IMG/VR virus record: IMGVR_UViG_3300028925_011157
Location: 1 to 20,388 of that record
Origin: a virus
DNA length: 20,388 bases
Direction: 5' to 3' (one strand)
Within the stretch, counting starts at the first letter, position 1; each line of letters opens with the position of its first letter. Below, in pieces: positions 6,032-20,388 of the stretch. Under the pieces are notes generated by a model. It was not told where the DNA came from. It worked only from the letters and a program-made list of their open reading frames with translations, and made no database searches. The position numbers and the translations under genes are program-made.

Positions 6032-6042
6032 GATATTTATAA
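6032..6042 (+). promoter_or_regulatory. Candidate late transcription signal GATATTTATAA
   Basis: A copy of the recurrent motif, in the short gap after the fibre block and 15 bases before the favoured ATG at 6058. Here the spacing would allow a short leader containing the GGAGA SD, so this copy best fits a promoter. Confidence 0.5.
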
Positions 6043-6057
6043 TATATGGAGAAGAAT

Positions 6058-8463
6058 ATGAACTTAGGAACGTGGTTAGCCGACCAAATAATAACAGAAG
6101 ATGCATCTAATATAACAACAATTGTTGCTATATATCCCGGCAGATTCCAGCCAATGGGTAAGCATCACGCTCAGGCATTTAAGTGGCTCAAATCTAAATT
6201 TAAAGATGCTCATGTAGTGACATCTGACAAAGTTGATCTACCAAAATCACCATTCTCGTTTAATGACAAGAAAAAGATAATAGCCTCACACGGAATACGT
6301 AATATTGTTAAAGTAAAGAATCCATATCAAGCAACAGAGCTTCTTAAAAAGTATGATCCGAAAACAACAGCAGCTGTATTTATGGTCGGTGCAAAAGACG
6401 CAAGTAGGTTAGGTGGTAAGTTTTTTAGACCTTGGAAGGGTAACGCAGAGATAGGGTACAAAGACGGAGCTTACACAATTATTGCACCACATGTATCATT
6501 AAAGGTACCCGGCCATGGTGAGATGTCCGGTACTGCTATTAGAACAGCGTTGGGAGCAAAAGCTATTACAGATAAGGATAGGTTAGAATTATTCAAACAC
6601 ATATTCGGACATACTAAGAATTACGACTTAATAACAAAAAAGTTAGGTGTGAATGAATCTATATTAGATTTTATTGCCTCCGGTAAAGTCCACGCGATAT
6701 TATTAGAGAACAGTAAAGCTAGTACTGCGACCTTAGGTGACGTAGATGATGGACCACAAGGTTGGTATCAATCTCAAGCTCACTATAAGAGTTCTACAAA
6801 CGATGTAGCTATGCAATTAGGCATGACTATTATTAATTACCTTTCCGGTGATGAAGAATTAAAATTTGGAACAAGTAGATTCCAAGGTAAGACAATGTCC
6901 CCATCTTCCTTCCCAGCTGGTGTTGCAGGTAAAAAAACAGCAACAAACCAGGACGACTTACCATCATCACGAGCATACGCAAAATGGAAATCACATGTGG
7001 ATGGTATAGCGGCACAACTAGGAATGGAGCTGTTAGATTATTTAGGAGCAGATAAATCTAAAAAAACTAAAGAGCCAAACAAGATCGATGAAACAATATC
7101 ACTACCAGTAGAGATAGGTGATACTGTTTTAATGGGAAAGTTCAAAAATAAGAAAGTTGTTGTAAAGACTATTAGTTTTAATGAAAAAGGTGATCTTCTA
7201 ATAAACGGTAGAACAGCTATGAAAATGAGGTTAGTTAAAAAGCAAAAGGCTGTTACTGAAGGATTAATAACTGAAGGTGGAGCATATGGACATATGTCAC
7301 ATCCATTTGATGACAGGGGATTAACGTTTGGTGATTTTAAGGAAATAATTGACATATCATTACAAGGTAAATTAGACCTAGATACAGCAGCAACAGAAAA
7401 AACAGATGGTCAAAATTTGTTTATAACCTGGAACGGTGAATTACGAGCAGCTAGAAACAACGGTGACATAAAGAGAGGTGGGATGGATGCTAATTCGTTT
7501 GCAGCTAAGTGGAAGGGTAGAGGTAATATAGAGAAAGCTTTCACATACGCATTTAAAGATCTCTCGAAAGCAATAGGGAAGATATCAGACAAGCAACGCG
7601 CAAAGATATTTAATGATGGTAACAATTGGATGAACATGGAGATTATGTATCCAGCATCTCAAAATGTTATAGTGTATGACGCTCCACATTTACAATTTCA
7701 TGGTATATTAAAATACGAGAAAGGTGTACCAGTTGGTACTGTAAAAGATGGTGCAAGAATATTAGCAGGTATGATAAAGCAGGTAGATGCTAACATACAG
7801 AAGAGTTTTAGTATAATTGGACCACATGTTCTTAAAATGTCCCCACACCAAGACTTCGCGGCTAAAGTTCCATATTTTAAAGCAAAGCTACAGAAACTAA
7901 TGTCACCGTATGGTATGAGAGATTCAAGCACATTTGCAGAATATCATCAAGCGTGGTGGGAAGCATACATTGACAAAAACTTCAAGAATCTTGACACGAG
8001 AGTTAAAATGGGGTTAGTCAAACGCTGGGCATTTTTTGATAAGTCATTTAGGTTAAATAAGAAGACAATAGAAGACGAAACGTTACTATCTAAAATAATT
8101 GAATTTGATAAACAAAAACATAAAGGTACAGTACAAGATACTATGAAGCCATTCGAAGTATTATTCTTTGAACTAGGTGTTGAGGTATTAAAGAATGTAG
8201 AAGGCTTCTTAACCGCTAGTCCAGACAAAGCGATAAAGCATATTAAAAGTCAAGTATCAAAAGCTATTAGCGATGTACGTAGGGGCGGTGATATTAAAAA
8301 ATTAAATAGAATGGGTCAACAATTAAATAAATTAAATGCAATTGGCGGATGGAAAGCAGTTATACCATCTGAAGGACTTGTATTTATTTACAAAGGTAGT
8401 ACATATAAGTTAACAGGTGCATTTGGTCCAATAAATCAAATAGCAGGCCTGATGACGTTTTAA
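6058..8463 (+). CDS. Fusion of NMN-adenylyltransferase-like and RNA/DNA-ligase-like domains
   Basis: 801 residues from ATG 6058, chosen over ATG 6046 because GGAGA at 6048-6052 gives a 5-base SD spacing. Residues ~20-165 look like an HIGH-type nucleotidyltransferase: PGRFQPMGKHH (27-37) at the usual HxGH site, VFMVGAKD, and MSGTAIR (156-162) at the ISSTxxR site. The middle holds two related helices (QLGMTIINYLSGD near 255, QLGMELLDYLGAD near 322) and a small beta domain (GDTVLMGKFKNKKVVVK). The C-terminal half has covalent-nucleotidyltransferase motifs: EKTDGQN (447-453, motif I, Lys448), ARNNGD (motif Ia-like), MNMEIMYP (Glu528, motif III-like), EGLVF (772-776, motif IV) and YKLTG (motif V-like, Lys784). 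The ~240-residue gap between motifs III and IV is much longer than in classic ligases. The order of domains is visible; substrates are not. T4 RNA ligase 1 also helps attach tail fibres, so a link to the adjacent fibre genes is possible. Confidence 0.72.
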   Translation: MNLGTWLADQIITEDASNITTIVAIYPGRFQPMGKHHAQAFKWLKSKFKDAHVVTSDKVDLPKSPFSFNDKKKIIASHGIRNIVKVKNPYQATELLKKYDPKTTAAVFMVGAKDASRLGGKFFRPWKGNAEIGYKDGAYTIIAPHVSLKVPGHGEMSGTAIRTALGAKAITDKDRLELFKHIFGHTKNYDLITKKLGVNESILDFIASGKVHAILLENSKASTATLGDVDDGPQGWYQSQAHYKSSTNDVAMQLGMTIINYLSGDEELKFGTSRFQGKTMSPSSFPAGVAGKKTATNQDDLPSSRAYAKWKSHVDGIAAQLGMELLDYLGADKSKKTKEPNKIDETISLPVEIGDTVLMGKFKNKKVVVKTISFNEKGDLLINGRTAMKMRLVKKQKAVTEGLITEGGAYGHMSHPFDDRGLTFGDFKEIIDISLQGKLDLDTAATEKTDGQNLFITWNGELRAARNNGDIKRGGMDANSFAAKWKGRGNIEKAFTYAFKDLSKAIGKISDKQRAKIFNDGNNWMNMEIMYPASQNVIVYDAPHLQFHGILKYEKGVPVGTVKDGARILAGMIKQVDANIQKSFSIIGPHVLKMSPHQDFAAKVPYFKAKLQKLMSPYGMRDSSTFAEYHQAWWEAYIDKNFKNLDTRVKMGLVKRWAFFDKSFRLNKKTIEDETLLSKIIEFDKQKHKGTVQDTMKPFEVLFFELGVEVLKNVEGFLTASPDKAIKHIKSQVSKAISDVRRGGDIKKLNRMGQQLNKLNAIGGWKAVIPSEGLVFIYKGSTYKLTGAFGPINQIAGLMTF

Positions 8464-10150: not shown

Positions 10151-10161
10151 ATATTTATATA
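10151..10161 (+). promoter_or_regulatory. Candidate late transcription signal ATATTTATATA
   Basis: A copy of the recurrent motif just upstream of the terminase, two bases before the ATG at 10164. No SD is present. As at 2403, the closeness to the start codon argues for a leaderless or near-leaderless message, or for a role other than a -10 element. Confidence 0.5.
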
Positions 10162-10163
10162 TA

Positions 10164-11747
10164 ATGGCGAAAGACTTAAAACAAATAATTGCAGATGAGT
10201 ATGTGAAGTGCGCTAAAGATCCAGTACACTTTATGAGAAAGTACTGCAAGATCCAACATCCAACGAGAGGTAAGATTAACTTTGATCTATATCCTTTTCA
10301 AGAAAAGTCTTTAATGCAATTTGCAGAACATGATTATAGTGTAATACTAAAATCGAGGCAATTGGGTATTTCAACCCTAACTGCAGGCTATACATTATGG
10401 TCGATGGTATTTAACCAAGATTTTAATGCTCTAGTAATTGCAATAAAACAAGATACAGCAAAAAATTTAGTAACTAAGATTCGTGTAATGCATGAATTCC
10501 TACCTAGCTGGCTAAAAGGTAACATACTTGAAGATAACAAGTTATCTCTAAGATTAGCTAATGGCTCACAGGTGAAAGCGATATCCAGTTCTCCAGACGC
10601 TGGTAGATCAGAAGCGCTATCGCTACTAGTAATAGACGAAGCAGCATTTATTGATAGCATAGATACTATATGGACATCAGCTCAACAGACACTAGCTACC
10701 GGTGGTAAGTGTATTGCACTATCTACACCAAATGGTGTTGGTAATTGGTTTCATAAAACATGGGTGAAAGCGGAAGCAGGTGAAAATAAATTTAACACTA
10801 TCCGACTACACTGGTCAGTACATCCTGAGAGAAGTCAAGAGTGGAGAGATGATCAAGATATTTTATTAGGAATTGATCAAGCAGCACAGGAGTGTGATTG
10901 CGACTTTATAAGTTCTGGAAAGTCTGTAGTGCCCGGTCCACTTTTAGAATGGTATCGCGACAATATGGTGCAAGAGCCTGTAGAAAAGCGAGGACATGAT
11001 AATTCGTATTGGGTATGGGAATATCCTAACTACACAAAGAACTATATTGTTGTAGCAGACGTCGCGAGAGGGGATGGAGGTGACTATTCAACATTCCATG
11101 TTATCGATATAGAGACAGTCACACAAGTTGCAGAGTACAAGGCTCATATTGGTGTTAAAGAATTCGGAAATATGCTAGTAAACATAGCTACAGAATATAA
11201 CGAAGCTTTACTAGTAATTGAGAATGCAAATATAGGATGGGCAGCCATACAACCAGCTATAGACAGAGGGTATAAGAATTTATATTATACATACAAACAC
11301 GAAGGTGTTATTGATCCAGATGTACAATTACGTAAAGGATATGATATTAAAGATAAAGGTCAAATGGTGCCAGGCTTTACAACTTCAGCTCGCACAAGAC
11401 CACTTTTGATATCAAAGCTAGATATTTATTTTAGAGAAAAGGCCTGTGTTGTGCGTTCGAGTAGACTTGTAGATGAATTATTTGTATTTGTCTGGAAGGG
11501 GTCGAGACCGGAAGCACAAACTGGATATAACGACGATTTAGTTATGGCGTTTTCAATAGCAATGTATATCCGTGATACAGCGCTAAAGTTAAGGAATGAA
11601 GGATTAGAGTTAAATAAGCGAGCAATTAAAATGATGGGTACAAGTACAACATTTAATGGAGCATATAGCACTAATTCAGATCCAACTGATTCATGGAATA
11701 TGGACGTTGGACACAACAATAGTGAAGACTTAACATGGTTATTATAG
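10164..11747 (+). CDS. 17: Terminase large subunit (gp17-like)
   Basis: 527 residues; T4 gp17 is ~610. It is the ATP-driven packaging motor and headful nuclease. The ATPase part shows Walker A SRQLGIST (64-71), Walker B LLVIDEA (154-160, with Asp158 and Glu159) and coupling motif STPNG (187-191). The nuclease part shows VVADVARGDGGDYS (296-309, Asp299 and probably Asp304), IENANIG (Glu353) and GYNDDLVMAF (454-463, Asp457/458), the expected acidic metal-binding set. The start is fixed by the upstream motif and the next stop. The portal gene follows after 12 bases, with no sheath or tube gene between. The small terminase subunit is not in the window. Family assignment is secure. Confidence 0.96.
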   Translation: MAKDLKQIIADEYVKCAKDPVHFMRKYCKIQHPTRGKINFDLYPFQEKSLMQFAEHDYSVILKSRQLGISTLTAGYTLWSMVFNQDFNALVIAIKQDTAKNLVTKIRVMHEFLPSWLKGNILEDNKLSLRLANGSQVKAISSSPDAGRSEALSLLVIDEAAFIDSIDTIWTSAQQTLATGGKCIALSTPNGVGNWFHKTWVKAEAGENKFNTIRLHWSVHPERSQEWRDDQDILLGIDQAAQECDCDFISSGKSVVPGPLLEWYRDNMVQEPVEKRGHDNSYWVWEYPNYTKNYIVVADVARGDGGDYSTFHVIDIETVTQVAEYKAHIGVKEFGNMLVNIATEYNEALLVIENANIGWAAIQPAIDRGYKNLYYTYKHEGVIDPDVQLRKGYDIKDKGQMVPGFTTSARTRPLLISKLDIYFREKACVVRSSRLVDELFVFVWKGSRPEAQTGYNDDLVMAFSIAMYIRDTALKLRNEGLELNKRAIKMMGTSTTFNGAYSTNSDPTDSWNMDVGHNNSEDLTWLL

Positions 11748-11759
11748 GAGTAAATAAAA

Positions 11760-13532
11760 ATGGCAGATAAATCATTTTTCGGAAGATTAGAAACATTATT
11801 TTCAACAAACGCAATTGTGCGAAGAGTTGGAACAAACAAGTTAAAAGTTATTGATGTCAATAAGGCACAATCTAACAATGGCTTAGCCACAAACAAGCTT
11901 GTTGATAGGTATACAAAATTACATGCATCATCTACACAGATGACATATAATCAATATCAAACTTTTCAACAGCAGAGAATCACATTATTCACAGATTATG
12001 AAACTATGGATGAAGATTCAATCATATCATCAGCACTAGATATCTATGCAGATGAATCAACTATTAAGAATGAATTTGATCAAGTACTATCGATCAACTG
12101 TCGTGATGAAGATATAAATAAAATATTACATAACCTTTTCTACGATATATTAAATATAGAATTCAATTTATGGCCGTGGGTACGTAATCTGTGCAAATAT
12201 GGGGACTTTTACTTGAAGTTAGATATAACAGAGAAGCTGGGTGTAACAAACGCACAACCTATATCCACCTATGAGATGGTTAGAGAGGAAGGTACTGATC
12301 CAACCAATGATGAGTACGTTAGATTTGTACACGACATAAGTATGGCTGGGCAATCTTCAGCAGCATCATCACAAGCTAAAACAGAATTCGAAAACTATGA
12401 AATAGCACACTTTAGAATGTTAAGTGATACAAACTTCTTACCATATGGCAAATCTATGCTAGAAGGATCTCGTAAAGTCTGGAAGCAATTGACACTTATG
12501 GAAGACGCGATGTTAATTCATCGTATAATGAGAGCACCTGAGAAGAGAGTCTTTAAAATTGATATAGGAAACATTCCACCAGCTGAAGTTGATAACTATA
12601 TGCAGCAGGTTATTAATAAGATGAAGAAGGTACCTTATATAGATCAAAACACTGGACAGTATAATCTTAAGTTTAATATGCAGAATATGTTGGAGGATTT
12701 TTACCTACCTGTGAGAGGAGGGCAGTCCGGAACAGAGATAGATTCACTTAGTGGTATGGAATTTACAGGCATTGACGATGTTGATTATCTTAAGAATAAG
12801 ATATTTGCAGGATTAAAGGTACCTAAGGCGTTTCTAGGATATGATGAGACAACAGAAGGTAAAGCAACATTAGCAGCAGAGGATGTTAGATTCGCAAGAA
12901 CGATAGAACGAGTGCAGAGAATAATAGTATCGGAACTTACCAAGATTGCAATTGTGCACTTATACGCTCAAGGATATGAAGATAGCAAGTTAGTTGATTT
13001 TGAATTAGCACTAACAAATTCATCGACGATATACCAACAAGAAAAGATTAGTTTATGGGCTGAAAAAATCTCATTAGCAGATTCAATGAAAGAAAATAAA
13101 ATGCTTTCAGAAGATTGGATATATAAAAACATATATAACATGAGTGATAAAGAGATTACAGACCAGCAAGGTAAGGTGGTCAAGGATATGGAAGGTGTGT
13201 ATAGAAAGATGAAGATGTCTGAAGACGGAGAAGACCCAGCTGCAGACTCTAAAGTACAGCCTGATGAAGAGTCAAGCACGTGGGAGTCTAGCGGAGGTGA
13301 TATCGGAAGACCACCAGAAGGTACAAAGTATAATACACAAGATCATGTAAGAGGAGCAGATCCCCTAGGTGATAAGACGAGAAAGCGCGATTATCTTAAT
13401 AGAGATCGTACTATTAAGCACAGTTATGCTGAATCGCTCAAATCAATCACGAAGAGTATGGACAAGCATGCAAAAGCAACCTTGTTAAGTGAAAATAACT
13501 TGTTAGATGACGAGTCTTTGCAAGCGGGATGA
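11760..13532 (+). CDS. 20: Portal vertex protein (gp20-like)
   Basis: 590 residues (T4 gp20 is 524), with an AGGAG SD 10 bases before the ATG. The dodecameric portal starts head assembly and docks the terminase and neck. Family hallmarks are RAPEKRVFKIDIGN (258-271), KKVPYIDQNTGQYN (289-302), LEDFYLPVRGGQSGTEID (311-328) and DYLKNKIFAGLKVPKAFLGY (342-361). The C-terminal ~100 residues are extra: acidic, Ser/Gly-rich and probably disordered (about 490-540), then a basic helix ending KATLLSENNLLDDE. The stop TGA overlaps the next transcription signal. The long C-terminal extension and the LLSE site may be processed during maturation, which is not demonstrated. Confidence 0.95.
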   Translation: MADKSFFGRLETLFSTNAIVRRVGTNKLKVIDVNKAQSNNGLATNKLVDRYTKLHASSTQMTYNQYQTFQQQRITLFTDYETMDEDSIISSALDIYADESTIKNEFDQVLSINCRDEDINKILHNLFYDILNIEFNLWPWVRNLCKYGDFYLKLDITEKLGVTNAQPISTYEMVREEGTDPTNDEYVRFVHDISMAGQSSAASSQAKTEFENYEIAHFRMLSDTNFLPYGKSMLEGSRKVWKQLTLMEDAMLIHRIMRAPEKRVFKIDIGNIPPAEVDNYMQQVINKMKKVPYIDQNTGQYNLKFNMQNMLEDFYLPVRGGQSGTEIDSLSGMEFTGIDDVDYLKNKIFAGLKVPKAFLGYDETTEGKATLAAEDVRFARTIERVQRIIVSELTKIAIVHLYAQGYEDSKLVDFELALTNSSTIYQQEKISLWAEKISLADSMKENKMLSEDWIYKNIYNMSDKEITDQQGKVVKDMEGVYRKMKMSEDGEDPAADSKVQPDEESSTWESSGGDIGRPPEGTKYNTQDHVRGADPLGDKTRKRDYLNRDRTIKHSYAESLKSITKSMDKHAKATLLSENNLLDDESLQAG

Positions 13533-14865: not shown

Positions 14866-14993
14866 TGAATAATTCTAAAGAAATAATAACTGAAGAGATG
14901 GATGAGGAACAAGTTAGAAAAGTTATCCGCAAAGAGATAGCTCGAATCTTCTTTGATTTATACAGAAAACGTAGCGTATGGGAGAAAGCATAA
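14865..14993 (+). CDS. 42-residue conserved-looking small protein upstream of the prohead protease
   Basis: A short ORF coupled at both ends by TAATG: its ATG (14865) overlaps the previous stop and its stop (14991-14993) overlaps the favoured gp21 ATG. The product begins MNNSKEIITEEMDEEQVRKV and continues as an amphipathic helix with IARIFFDLYRKRSVW near the C-terminus. Without it there would be a 127-base gap in an otherwise gapless operon. The E-rich start resembles the N-terminal leaders of neighbouring proteins. It could be a minor core component in the gp67/68 place. Function unknown. Confidence 0.66.
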   Translation: MNNSKEIITEEMDEEQVRKVIRKEIARIFFDLYRKRSVWEKA

Positions 14994-15616
14994 TGTCAAA
15001 GAGTTTATTAATAGATTATACACCATTTGATATAACACCTCAAATGATTACTGAGTCTGAACAGAGGAACGGTGGTAGGGTTATTGTAACCGGTGTCCTG
15101 CAAAGAGCTGGAGCAAAGAACCAGAACGGTAGAGTTTATCCAAAAGAAATTTTAATGCGGGAAGTTACTGAGTATAAAAAGATACAGGTAGCAGAACGTA
15201 GAGCTCTAGGAGAGTTAGATCACCCTGAATCATCTGTTGTTAATCTATCTAACGCGTCTCACAATGTTGTAGACGTGTGGTGGGATGGTGATGATGTTGT
15301 AGGTAAGGTAGAGGTATTATCAACCCCAGCTGGTAACATATTAAAAGAATTATTCAAATCAGGCATTAAGCTTGGTATTAGTTCTAGAGGGTTAGGATCA
15401 GTGAAGCAAGTGAATGAAGACACGGTAGCAGTACAAGATGACTTTGAATTAGTTTGCTGGGACTTCGTTAGTAATCCATCTACCCAAGGAGCTTTTATGG
15501 CACCTGTAAATGAATCAAAATCGGCTCAACGGCCATTAAATAAGTATTATAAAGTAAATAGCATAATTAATGAAATGCTATGTGATTTAACATGTAAGTG
15601 TTCACTGCCAAGTTAG
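14993..15616 (+). CDS. 21: Prohead core protease (gp21-like)
   Basis: 207 residues from ATG 14993, preferred to ATG 14978 because GGAGA sits seven bases upstream and the start overlaps the previous stop. It matures the prohead by cutting scaffold and capsid proteins. Visible hallmarks are NQNGRVYP (43-50), GELDHPE with His77, GISSRGLGSV with Ser130/131 as nucleophile candidates, and WDFVSNPST with Asp157. The length equals T4 gp21 (~212). ITE/S at 19-22 fits the protease's own cleavage rule, so N-terminal self-processing is plausible. The end is unusual in having three cysteines (CDLTCKC). Confidence 0.94.
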   Translation: MSKSLLIDYTPFDITPQMITESEQRNGGRVIVTGVLQRAGAKNQNGRVYPKEILMREVTEYKKIQVAERRALGELDHPESSVVNLSNASHNVVDVWWDGDDVVGKVEVLSTPAGNILKELFKSGIKLGISSRGLGSVKQVNEDTVAVQDDFELVCWDFVSNPSTQGAFMAPVNESKSAQRPLNKYYKVNSIINEMLCDLTCKCSLPS

Positions 15617-17247: not shown

Positions 17248-17270
17248 AATAAACTAAAATATATATTGTG

Positions 17271-17300
17271 AAAAGGTTGGTTTATCCAGCCTTTTTTCTT
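17271..17300 (+). terminator. Intrinsic terminator after the prohead operon
   Basis: Inverted arms aaaggttgg (17272-17280) and ccagccttt (17286-17294), one G-T pair, five-base loop, then a T-rich run. It lies 24 bases after the stop of the upstream gene and before the bS21 gene. Confidence 0.85.
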
Positions 17301-17335
17301 ATATTATAGTATTAATCGAGCAATAACAAACTAAA

Positions 17336-17707
17336 ATGCATATGCAAGAAAATTCGAAAAAAGACCGACCTTATAATAAAGACGGCAACAAGCAATTCAA
17401 GCCACGAGGTCCGCGGCAAGACTTTTTTATACCTGGAAATCCTAGAGGGGTTAAGGTACATGATGGGTCACCAATAGCTCTAGAAAAGAGCCTGAGATAT
17501 CTTAAACGTCAGATCAAAGATACAGATATAATGGGTCAGTATAAAGCTAACCAAGAGTTTCTAAAACCATCGGCTATTAAGCGAAGGAAGATGAAAGATG
17601 CTAAATACAAACAGCGTCTACGTGACAAGATCTCAGCTGAGTTTTGGAAAGATCACTGTTGGCTAGTGCCACCTGATAAGAATTACGGTCCAATACTACC
17701 AGACTAA
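17336..17707 (+). CDS. rpsU: Ribosomal protein bS21 homologue, extended
   Basis: 123 residues. Residues ~42-97 match the bS21 pattern: DGSPIALEKSLRYLKRQIK, then QEFLKPSAIKRR (73-84) and a basic end with AKYKQRLRD (89-97). These align with the Bacteroidota S21 signature (ALKRYKR ... FIKPS.. KR ... AAYIQ.LRD). Normal S21 is ~60-70 residues. This one adds a ~40-residue basic, Pro/Gly-rich N-terminus and a ~26-residue C-terminus ending DKNYGPILPD. bS21 sits on the 30S platform near the 16S 3' end. Phage-borne S21 is known and is thought to compete with or replace the host protein. The gene stands alone between two terminators with no clear SD; ATG 17342 is an alternative start. A host-translation role is inferred. 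Confidence 0.83.
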   Translation: MHMQENSKKDRPYNKDGNKQFKPRGPRQDFFIPGNPRGVKVHDGSPIALEKSLRYLKRQIKDTDIMGQYKANQEFLKPSAIKRRKMKDAKYKQRLRDKISAEFWKDHCWLVPPDKNYGPILPD

Positions 17708-17730
17708 CATATACTATAACATATTTTTAA

Positions 17731-17759
17731 GAAACCCGGAACTTTTCCGGGTTTTTTTA
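17731..17759 (+). terminator. Intrinsic terminator after the bS21 gene
   Basis: Perfect 10-base arms aaacccggaa (17732-17741) and ttccgggttt (17745-17754), three-base loop, then a T run. It follows the bS21 stop by 24 bases. Confidence 0.93.
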
Positions 17760-17896
17760 TGTGTTTAATATATATGCATATATTTATATGTGTACAAAAT
17801 ACACCATCACAATACATATGGTGTTAGCTACTTACAAAAATATATTAAGGATCCTAATATCCTTATTTCCACATTAAAATTTATTGGAGACAAATT
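17760..17896 (+). promoter_or_regulatory. Long leader of the scaffold/capsid operon
   Basis: With the terminator before it, this is the longest non-coding stretch of the window. It holds the TATTTATAT motif at 17781-17789, a hairpin with arms acaccat/atggtgt (17801-17807 and 17818-17824), a second with arms aaggat/atcctt (17847-17852 and 17859-17864), and a good SD (TTGGAGA) eight bases before the ATG at 17897. The structures could stabilise the message for the most abundant late proteins; that is inference. Confidence 0.55.
17779..17789 (+). promoter_or_regulatory. Candidate late transcription signal CATATATTTATAT-type
   Basis: The fifth copy of the recurrent motif (core TATTTATAT at 17781-17789), placed right after the bS21 terminator and 107 bases before the scaffold ATG. 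Position after a terminator supports a promoter. Confidence 0.55.
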
Positions 17897-18799: not shown

Positions 18800-18828
18800 A
18801 ATTAAAAAAGAAATAGGAGAAGACACAA

Positions 18829-20388
18829 ATGTCTGAAATTTCAAAATTATTAAATGACGCTCAATCAACGTATAGAACACAGTTGAACGAGACAAAGAAG
18901 TACGTTTCCAAATGGGAAAAGACGGGACTTCTTGAAGGAATCGACCACGATTATGAAAAACATAATACAGCGATCCTACTAGAGAATCAAGCTAGAGAAC
19001 TTGTAACAGAGAACTCAAAGGTTGGTGGTGCAAATTCTGAAGAGTGGAACGGCGTTGCCTTACCACTTGTAAGACGTATATTCGGTGAAATCTTTGCAAA
19101 AGAATTCGTTTCGGTACAGCCAATGAATCTCCCATCAGGACTAATATTCTGGTTGGATTTCAAATATGGATCAGCTGGAGGTATTAACCAAACTAAAGAC
19201 ACAGATGTAATGGGTAACACTTCATCATCAGCTTCACCAACAGGTGGACTTTATGGTAAAGGTAGAGAATCTTACACGCTTAAGAAAGTATCTCAAGCTG
19301 GTGGTGCACTTGCACTTGTAGTAGCTAACGGAGCCGACTGGGCTTTACCAATCGCATCTGCATCAGAAGCTGATTTAGATTTAGTAGATTCATTCTACTT
19401 AACTTCTCAATCTTCAGCAGGTGTAGACGGTGGTGTAGCTTTCTCAACAGCAGGAACTGCAACATTAAATGCTGCAGGTACTACAATTACATTTAAAAAC
19501 GCTGGTACTTCAATAGGTGGAACAACTAACGCAACACTTGCAACAGACGGGTTCTTCCTACACTACTACAAGAACACGTTAGTGGCTTCTAGCAGAGGTG
19601 ACTTCGAAGATTCAGCTGCAACTCCTGCAGGAACTACTTCTACTGGTACTGATGATATCGGTATTCCAGAAATGAATGTAGAATTGAAGCAAGAAGCTTT
19701 AGTTGCAAAGACTAGAAAGTTGAAAGTTGTTTGGTCTCCAGAGTTCGCTCAAGATCTAAACGCTTACCATTCTATCGATGCAGAAGCTGAATTAACATCT
19801 ATGTTATCAGAGTACATCTCAATGGAAATTGACATGGAAATTTTAGCAATGCTTGATAGAGCTGCTAACACAGTAGCTTCAAGTCAAGGTACATTTGCTT
19901 TGTCTTCAGCTGCACATGGATATGCTCCAGTAATAGCTGATGCAACTGCTAGATATGACTTCGGTACATGGGCACAAACTTTAGGATACGAAATGCAAAA
20001 AGTTTCGAACTCTATCCATAAGTTAACCATGAGAGGTGGTGCTAACTTCGCAGTTTGTGATCCGGAAATTGCTTCGATTATCGAATCGATTCCAGGGTTT
20101 GCTGCTGATACTGACGGAACTGCATCACAGTTCGCTGCCGGTGTAACTAAGGTAGGTTCTTTTGCTAACAGATACACGATCTATAAGAATCCTTATAGAG
20201 CAAAAACAGATGGTATCTTGATGGGATTCAGAGGTAATCAATTCTTGGAAACTGGTGCTGTTTATGCTCCATACATTCCACTAATCATGACTCCTTTGGT
20301 ATATGACCCAACTAACTTTACACCAAGAAAAGGTGTAATGACCAGGTATGCTAAGAAAGTTGTTCGACCTGAATTTTATGGCAAGCTT
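18829..20388 (+). CDS. 23: Major capsid protein (gp23-like), 3' partial
   Basis: 520 codons are present with no stop, so the gene runs out of the window; by comparison only a few residues are missing. AGGAGA lies eight bases before the ATG. The first ~60 residues are a charged propeptide. LVTE/N with Glu61 sits where T4 gp23 is cut after Glu65, in LTE/A. Clear family matches are FVSVQPMNLPSG, FWLDFKYG, KTRKLKVVWSPEFAQDLNAY (from residue 294), DAEAELTSMLSEYISMEI and LVYDPTNFTPRKGVMTRYAKK. The end ...RPEFYGKL shows the terminus is near, shorter after TRY than T4. It forms the hexameric shell of the head. Confidence 0.96.
   Translation, partial: MSEISKLLNDAQSTYRTQLNETKKYVSKWEKTGLLEGIDHDYEKHNTAILLENQARELVTENSKVGGANSEEWNGVALPLVRRIFGEIFAKEFVSVQPMNLPSGLIFWLDFKYGSAGGINQTKDTDVMGNTSSSASPTGGLYGKGRESYTLKKVSQAGGALALVVANGADWALPIASASEADLDLVDSFYLTSQSSAGVDGGVAFSTAGTATLNAAGTTITFKNAGTSIGGTTNATLATDGFFLHYYKNTLVASSRGDFEDSAATPAGTTSTGTDDIGIPEMNVELKQEALVAKTRKLKVVWSPEFAQDLNAYHSIDAEAELTSMLSEYISMEIDMEILAMLDRAANTVASSQGTFALSSAAHGYAPVIADATARYDFGTWAQTLGYEMQKVSNSIHKLTMRGGANFAVCDPEIASIIESIPGFAADTDGTASQFAAGVTKVGSFANRYTIYKNPYRAKTDGILMGFRGNQFLETGAVYAPYIPLIMTPLVYDPTNFTPRKGVMTRYAKKVVRPEFYGKL

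Follow-up and report, generated by a model that had tools for sequence, protein, structure and literature searches.

Our analysis suggests that a ribosomal protein, bS21, encoded among the head genes of a marine T4-like phage acts as a switch from early to late translation by making the host ribosome read the Shine-Dalgarno (SD) sequences of late phage genes. We put this reading at slightly below even odds (about 0.48). The gene (17336..17707, + strand) lies in a stretch of 20,388 nucleotides, hereafter the window, which is a complete IMG/VR record and holds no second bS21. It is accompanied by putative control signals of its own, its neighbours bear SD, and in related phages the presence of bS21 goes with the use of SD. 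Of all ribosomal proteins, bS21 is the commonest in phages, and to our knowledge its role for them has so far been a guess.

An earlier note on this DNA had identified the gene as a phage bS21 with extensions at both ends, and this identity holds. The product of 123 residues, whose start may be the second ATG at 17342, matches PF01165 over residues 39-94 (model positions 2-55 of 55, E=7.7e-9, 35.6 bits for a cut-off of 27) and the NCBIfam model TIGR00030 over residues 38-94 (E=5.1e-9, 35.8 bits for a cut-off of 28.95), in both cases above the curated cut-offs. The top match in a single-sequence search of solved structures was Flavobacterium johnsoniae bS21 (7JIL, E 2.2e-5, residues 42-99), and the PHROGs match to S21 was weak (E 0.026). 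The protein is indeed about twice the usual length, F. johnsoniae bS21 having 64 residues, and its extensions are real. They are conserved in an alignment of 27 long-form proteins, the one in the window and those of marine phage relatives, to all of which the S21 core is common. The basic N-terminal extension (codons 1-38, 17336..17449, + strand) carries the conserved block DF..PG.P.GVKV, with F30, G34, P36 and G38, and the C-terminal extension (codons 95-123, 17618..17704, + strand) carries W109; F30 and W109 are invariant. The AlphaFold2 model (pLDDT 75.7) has helices at 46-63, 65-73 and 78-105, with uncertain tails and low confidence in the N-terminal extension. The top Foldseek row was a mitochondrial S21, a weak match (E 0.77), and a fold comparison (VIA) gave a Z of 3.3, level with unrelated helical chains; such weak structure-search scores are expected for two long helices and contribute little. 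The description of the core as the Bacteroidota form stands in part: the window protein retains Y91 (codon 17606..17608, + strand), by alignment the equivalent of Tyr54 in F. johnsoniae bS21, but this Tyr is missing from the 26 other members of the long clade, which mostly have Arg.

The placement inside the head module was confirmed. On the same strand as bS21 lie the terminase large subunit (10164..11747; PHROGs E 1.1e-48), the portal protein gp20 (11760..13532; E 6.9e-71), the prohead protease gp21 (14978..15616; E 5.2e-57; alternative start at 14993, with GGGAG upstream) and the major capsid protein gp23 (18829..20388, running off the contig), recognized by tblastn to the capsid proteins of the phages immuto and Mel-JY01. 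The bS21 gene sits between the gp21/gp22-like genes and gp23. This head gene order, TerL-gp20-gp21-(bS21)-scaffold-gp23 with homologous proteins, matches that of the immuto/Mel-JY01 T4-like group, and Mel-JY01 and Flavobacterium phage immuto are the best cultured relatives of the gp23-type capsid. Ahead of TerL lies an ORF of 805 residues (6046-8463), and immuto has the same arrangement; a long ORF of that region in immuto carries the annotation NadR-like nucleotidyltransferase. There was no Rfam match in the window; in a bS21-bearing phage (G030, locus L197), ARAGORN reported a permuted tmRNA candidate at 12474-12768, with the tag GTQVEMAMAA.

The SD-bearing late genes that the earlier note had pointed out are also there. 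AGGAG precedes gp20 (11746..11750, start 11760) and gp23 (18815..18819, start 18829), and GGAG precedes an acidic gp22-like gene (17886..17889, start 17897), all on the + strand. Counting as a strong SD any GGAG or GAGG that lies 4-17 nt upstream of an ATG called mechanically, we found one on 12 of the 21 window genes, compared with 6% at arbitrary positions (binomial 5e-10).

The signals around bS21 are of another kind. Just upstream of a putative early-type promoter box, TTATATTA (17299..17306, + strand), lies a terminator-like hairpin with a T run (17270..17297, + strand; fold of 17262-17300, -14.3 kcal/mol), and the box is followed by an A-rich leader without SD (17307..17335, + strand). 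A second hairpin of this type, again with a T run, follows the gene (17729..17757, + strand; fold of 17714-17764, -18.9 kcal/mol), and past it the head operon resumes at the next gene, with a putative late-type box, ATATTTAT (17780..17787, + strand), and an SD. The early-type box precedes bS21 in 22 of 26 distinct leaders of the long clade. None of these 26 leaders has an SD, unlike the strong SD that autoregulation of bS21 would call for, whereas SD precede capsid (21/22), gp21 (17/25) and portal genes (8/18) of the same clade (bS21 vs capsid, p 1e-12). Lacking an SD, flanked by two terminators and provided with its own promoter box, bS21 does not simply belong to the late operon; judged by these motifs, it looks like an insulated unit of the early class set among late genes rather than a co-expressed late gene. 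The arrangement is not universal, as the 75-residue bS21 of a freshwater clade (L103-L147) has a strong GGAGGU directly before it, as in the autoregulation of host rpsU, and that clade has sigma70-type promoters.

Both kinds of box are directional in upstream regions (TTATATT[AT], early type, 128 sense and 19 antisense; ATATTTAT not preceded by TT, late type, 149 and 7), and the late box is more often found ahead of structural genes (72/129 vs 23/121, p 1.5e-9). The terms early and late, for boxes and genes alike, are putative assignments from sequence. With this reservation, the two boxes differ strongly in what follows them: SD occur on 59 of 81 genes behind late boxes (73%) and on 19 of 87 behind early boxes (22%; p 3e-11), and in the four best-defined records on 28/36 and 4/55, respectively. 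When genes were classified by orthology to immuto and Mel-JY01, 16 bS21-bearing records had SD on 191/453 structural genes, 21/99 replication genes (p 9e-5) and 4/33 early small genes. T4 has no such bias towards late genes (early 68/174, late 11/36), and, judging by its few classified genes, HTVC008M has none either. Three late-type boxes of the window (10151-10164, ahead of TerL; 2404-2414; 6033-6046) lie so close to the ATG, at 10-13 nt, that the mRNAs are probably leaderless; similarly close boxes in relatives (20 late, 25 early) almost never come with SD.

The association between SD and bS21 extends well beyond the window. A scan of viral contigs for close relatives with the bS21 protein as sole query returned nothing, and relatives were reached through gp21 and capsid protein scans. 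These gave 160 loci, in which 104 ORFs were recognized as bS21 by jackhmmer; they lie on the same strand as gp21 and the capsid gene, between the two. Another 160 loci came from scans with two more capsid proteins, those of immuto and one bS21-less phage. In the comparison set of 201 loci holding both gp21 and a capsid gene, SD are present on 641 of 1645 genes (39%) in the 112 loci with bS21 and on 48 of 1165 (4%) in the 89 without it, for an internal-ATG control of 0.03-0.06. Contigs from MAGs agree with this association, and whole records of bS21-bearing relatives are rich in SD (e.g., 0.54 in G026 and 0.45 in G036). Phage immuto, with no bS21 anywhere in its genome, has SD on 3 of 208 genes. 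The exceptions in the comparison set are one SD-rich locus without bS21 and 17 SD-poor loci with it (at 12% or less); SD without bS21 is thus rare, and bS21 without SD less so. On the capsid tree the bS21 state changed only five times, and the independent pairs are concordant, if too few for significance. Locally, a clade of 13 rows and a separate pair (L425/L427) both carry bS21 and mostly SD, beside rows that have neither. Four huge phages with a Tyr54-type bS21 have SD on 6/42, 1/29, 0/35 and 0/31 genes; in a 735-kb phage (LR756501.1, locus L509) the Tyr54-type bS21 (14960-15189) stands behind aaaggaggataaATG, and few other genes have SD.

How might bS21 bring this about? Tyr54 of F. johnsoniae bS21 keeps the 16S tail parked and stacks on A1534; in this species the Y54A change or the loss of the C-terminus leads to more translation of mRNA with strong SD (PMC9976891). 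The bS21 of a Pelagibacter phage enters E. coli ribosomes (PMC6375957, as reported in PMC9976891). We propose that the early-type promoter of the phage bS21 would drive its transcription, and that unmodified host ribosomes, which make little use of SD, would translate it from its A-rich, SD-less leader. It would then substitute for the host protein on the 30S platform, where the altered protein, which in most relatives lacks the tail-parking tyrosine and has extended tails, could free the 16S anti-SD. Ribosomes changed in this way would favour the SD-bearing late mRNAs of the phage. The broader view, in which SD-blind ribosomes become SD-reading in mid-infection and the phage exploits this with a genome divided between early genes that lack SD, bS21 among them, and late genes that bear it, is a shade more tentative. 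The earlier note had proposed that translation could be reprogrammed towards SD-bearing late genes; this is partly supported, in that SD tracks bS21 and clusters on late genes, those of phages with Bacteroidota-type promoters included, but the mechanism is one that we infer, and bS21 itself seems to be an SD-less gene of the early class.

Tyr54 loss is not the whole story in the window, because the window bS21 keeps Y91. As the sole determinant of SD use it was rejected as too simple, the window being among the exceptions. Among 74 distinct bS21-bearing phages, SD are used by 6 of 13 with an aromatic residue at position 54 and by 51 of 61 with other residues, and the length of the bS21 tail correlates weakly with SD use. 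In five SD-less loci with bS21 (L397, L412, L417, L431 and L432), the protein stops soon after position 54 (with KRKNKFNFL or a similar end), and these are perhaps a functional sub-type.

The association could also be caused by host matching: phages with SD would infect bacteria that use SD, those without would infect Bacteroidia, and bS21 would only supplement or replace a limiting ribosomal protein, with no control of SD. We consider this rather unlikely, even if several observations fit it. The freshwater clade with short bS21 has sigma70-type promoters (TTGACA-17-TATAAT), and SD may therefore be normal for its host. HTVC008M combines bS21 with sigma70-type promoters and SD across gene classes, and independent changes of bS21 on the tree are few. 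A search of 396 genomes of the order Flavobacteriales for CRISPR spacers yielded nothing convincing against the window, only phage contigs and short chance matches. Yet host matching leaves unexplained why genes of the early class in the same genomes lack SD. It also fits poorly with phages whose promoters tell something of their host. Promoters of Bacteroidota (TTTG/TAnnTTTG) are very unlike those of the sigma70 type (PMC6847099) and are thus usable as host markers. They are abundant in Mel-JY01 (21, with 1.4 expected), G045 (17, 1.4) and G034 (20, 1.2), and fewer in G046 and G047. In this Bacteroidota-linked set, to which immuto was assigned for its known Flavobacterium host and the others for their promoter type, structural genes have SD in 34/132 cases in phages with bS21 (Mel-JY01, G045 and G046) and in 4/87 in phages without it (G034, G047 and immuto); the p-value of 3.7e-5 is, like the other p-values on SD, optimistic because genes of one genome are not independent. 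In the three phages with bS21, SD occur on 0 of 27 genes behind host-type promoters and on 17 of 51 behind late boxes, as against 1 of 27 behind late boxes in two phages without bS21. Mel-JY01 (PP395634) is labelled as a Microcystis phage, yet some 20 near-identical Bacteroidota-type promoters precede its early genes (L224-L227), which makes this host label doubtful.

For the window phage itself, we tentatively infer a host with SD-blind, Bacteroidota-like ribosomes. Among cultured phages of known host, its capsid is nearest to that of a Flavobacterium phage, and the capsid kinship of its clade points to Bacteroidota. For the early boxes of the clade, neither the consensus of Bacteroidota nor that of sigma70 is a clean fit. 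Six of 15 contigs from MAGs are in Flavobacteriales bins, a weak signal because these bins hold several phages and the other bins are implausible. One Flavobacteriales MAG (L054; G054 loci L514, L516 and L518) has three divergent bS21 genes, at least some of which probably come from phage contigs in the bin.

A different timing was suggested for the bS21 of lake phages (Chen et al. 2022, PMC9723584). Under this model a bS21 made late would replace that of the host and favour phage transcripts through its N-terminal helix, with the anti-SD still blocked and SD irrelevant. Y91 of the window protein would keep the contact with the anti-SD, the gene sits in the head module, and bS21 and structural transcripts co-occur in lake phages (PMC9723584). 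Nevertheless, we regard the model as improbable here, since bS21 in the window clade has an early-type box of its own and an SD-less leader, the late genes do bear SD, and the other aligned members of the clade have no Tyr. Least probable is an extra-ribosomal role, in which the protein would bind phage RNA, DNA or capsid, or be packaged (a possibility raised in PMC9723584) and injected, with the S21 core serving only as an RNA-binding scaffold: the basic, conserved extensions with their invariant W109 and the adjoining scaffold and capsid genes would suit it, but the best-conserved part of the protein is the S21 core, which scores above ribosomal cut-offs, and relatives without long extensions have bS21 at the same locus.

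If the pattern holds, the proposed translation switch gives bS21 a concrete and testable function, the release of a sequestered anti-SD to the benefit of SD-bearing late genes. A virus would then alter which mRNAs the ribosome selects by exchanging a single protein, and the passage from early to late expression would take place at the level of translation initiation. This would also explain the presence of SD in some phages linked to SD-blind bacteria.

Phage bS21 and its location among head genes have already been published (Mizuno et al. 2019, PMC6375957; Chen et al. 2022, PMC9723584). In the literature searched, most subscription journals and preprints lying outside it, we came across no report on how bS21 phages use SD, on an early bS21 promoter or on the extended form; what seems new here is the regulatory pattern, with an SD-less, insulated bS21 among SD-bearing late genes. 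The myoviruses of freshwater Bacteroidetes described by Chen et al. (PMC9723584), a study that did not analyse SD use by phage genes, share with ours a bS21 among TerL, portal, prohead protease and capsid genes, a Bacteroidetes-like core and a proposed takeover of the ribosome. They differ in that their bS21 is on the strand opposite to the structural genes, while it is on the same strand in the window and its relatives, and position 54 is aromatic in all 61 of their proteins and mostly Arg in the window clade. Other features that set this clade apart are the N- and C-terminal extensions, the putative early-type promoter, the SD-less leader and the SD on late genes. HTVC008M is also a T4-like phage with a bS21, the one reported to enter E. 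coli ribosomes, but the gene is far from the capsid gene (91.2 kb vs 74.2 kb) and SD are found on all gene classes. The F. johnsoniae protein (McNutt 2023, PMC9976891; 7JIL) shares the core over residues 42-99, including the Tyr54 position, but is encoded by a host rpsU with an extended SD, whereas the phage gene has none. Phage immuto (MW353176), the nearest of the cultured relatives for which a Bacteroidota host is documented, has the same head gene order, but neither bS21 nor more than sporadic SD. Mel-JY01 has bS21 at the same locus and SD on structural genes, as in the window, but its bS21 has 75 residues, and its promoters are of the Bacteroidota type in spite of its label.
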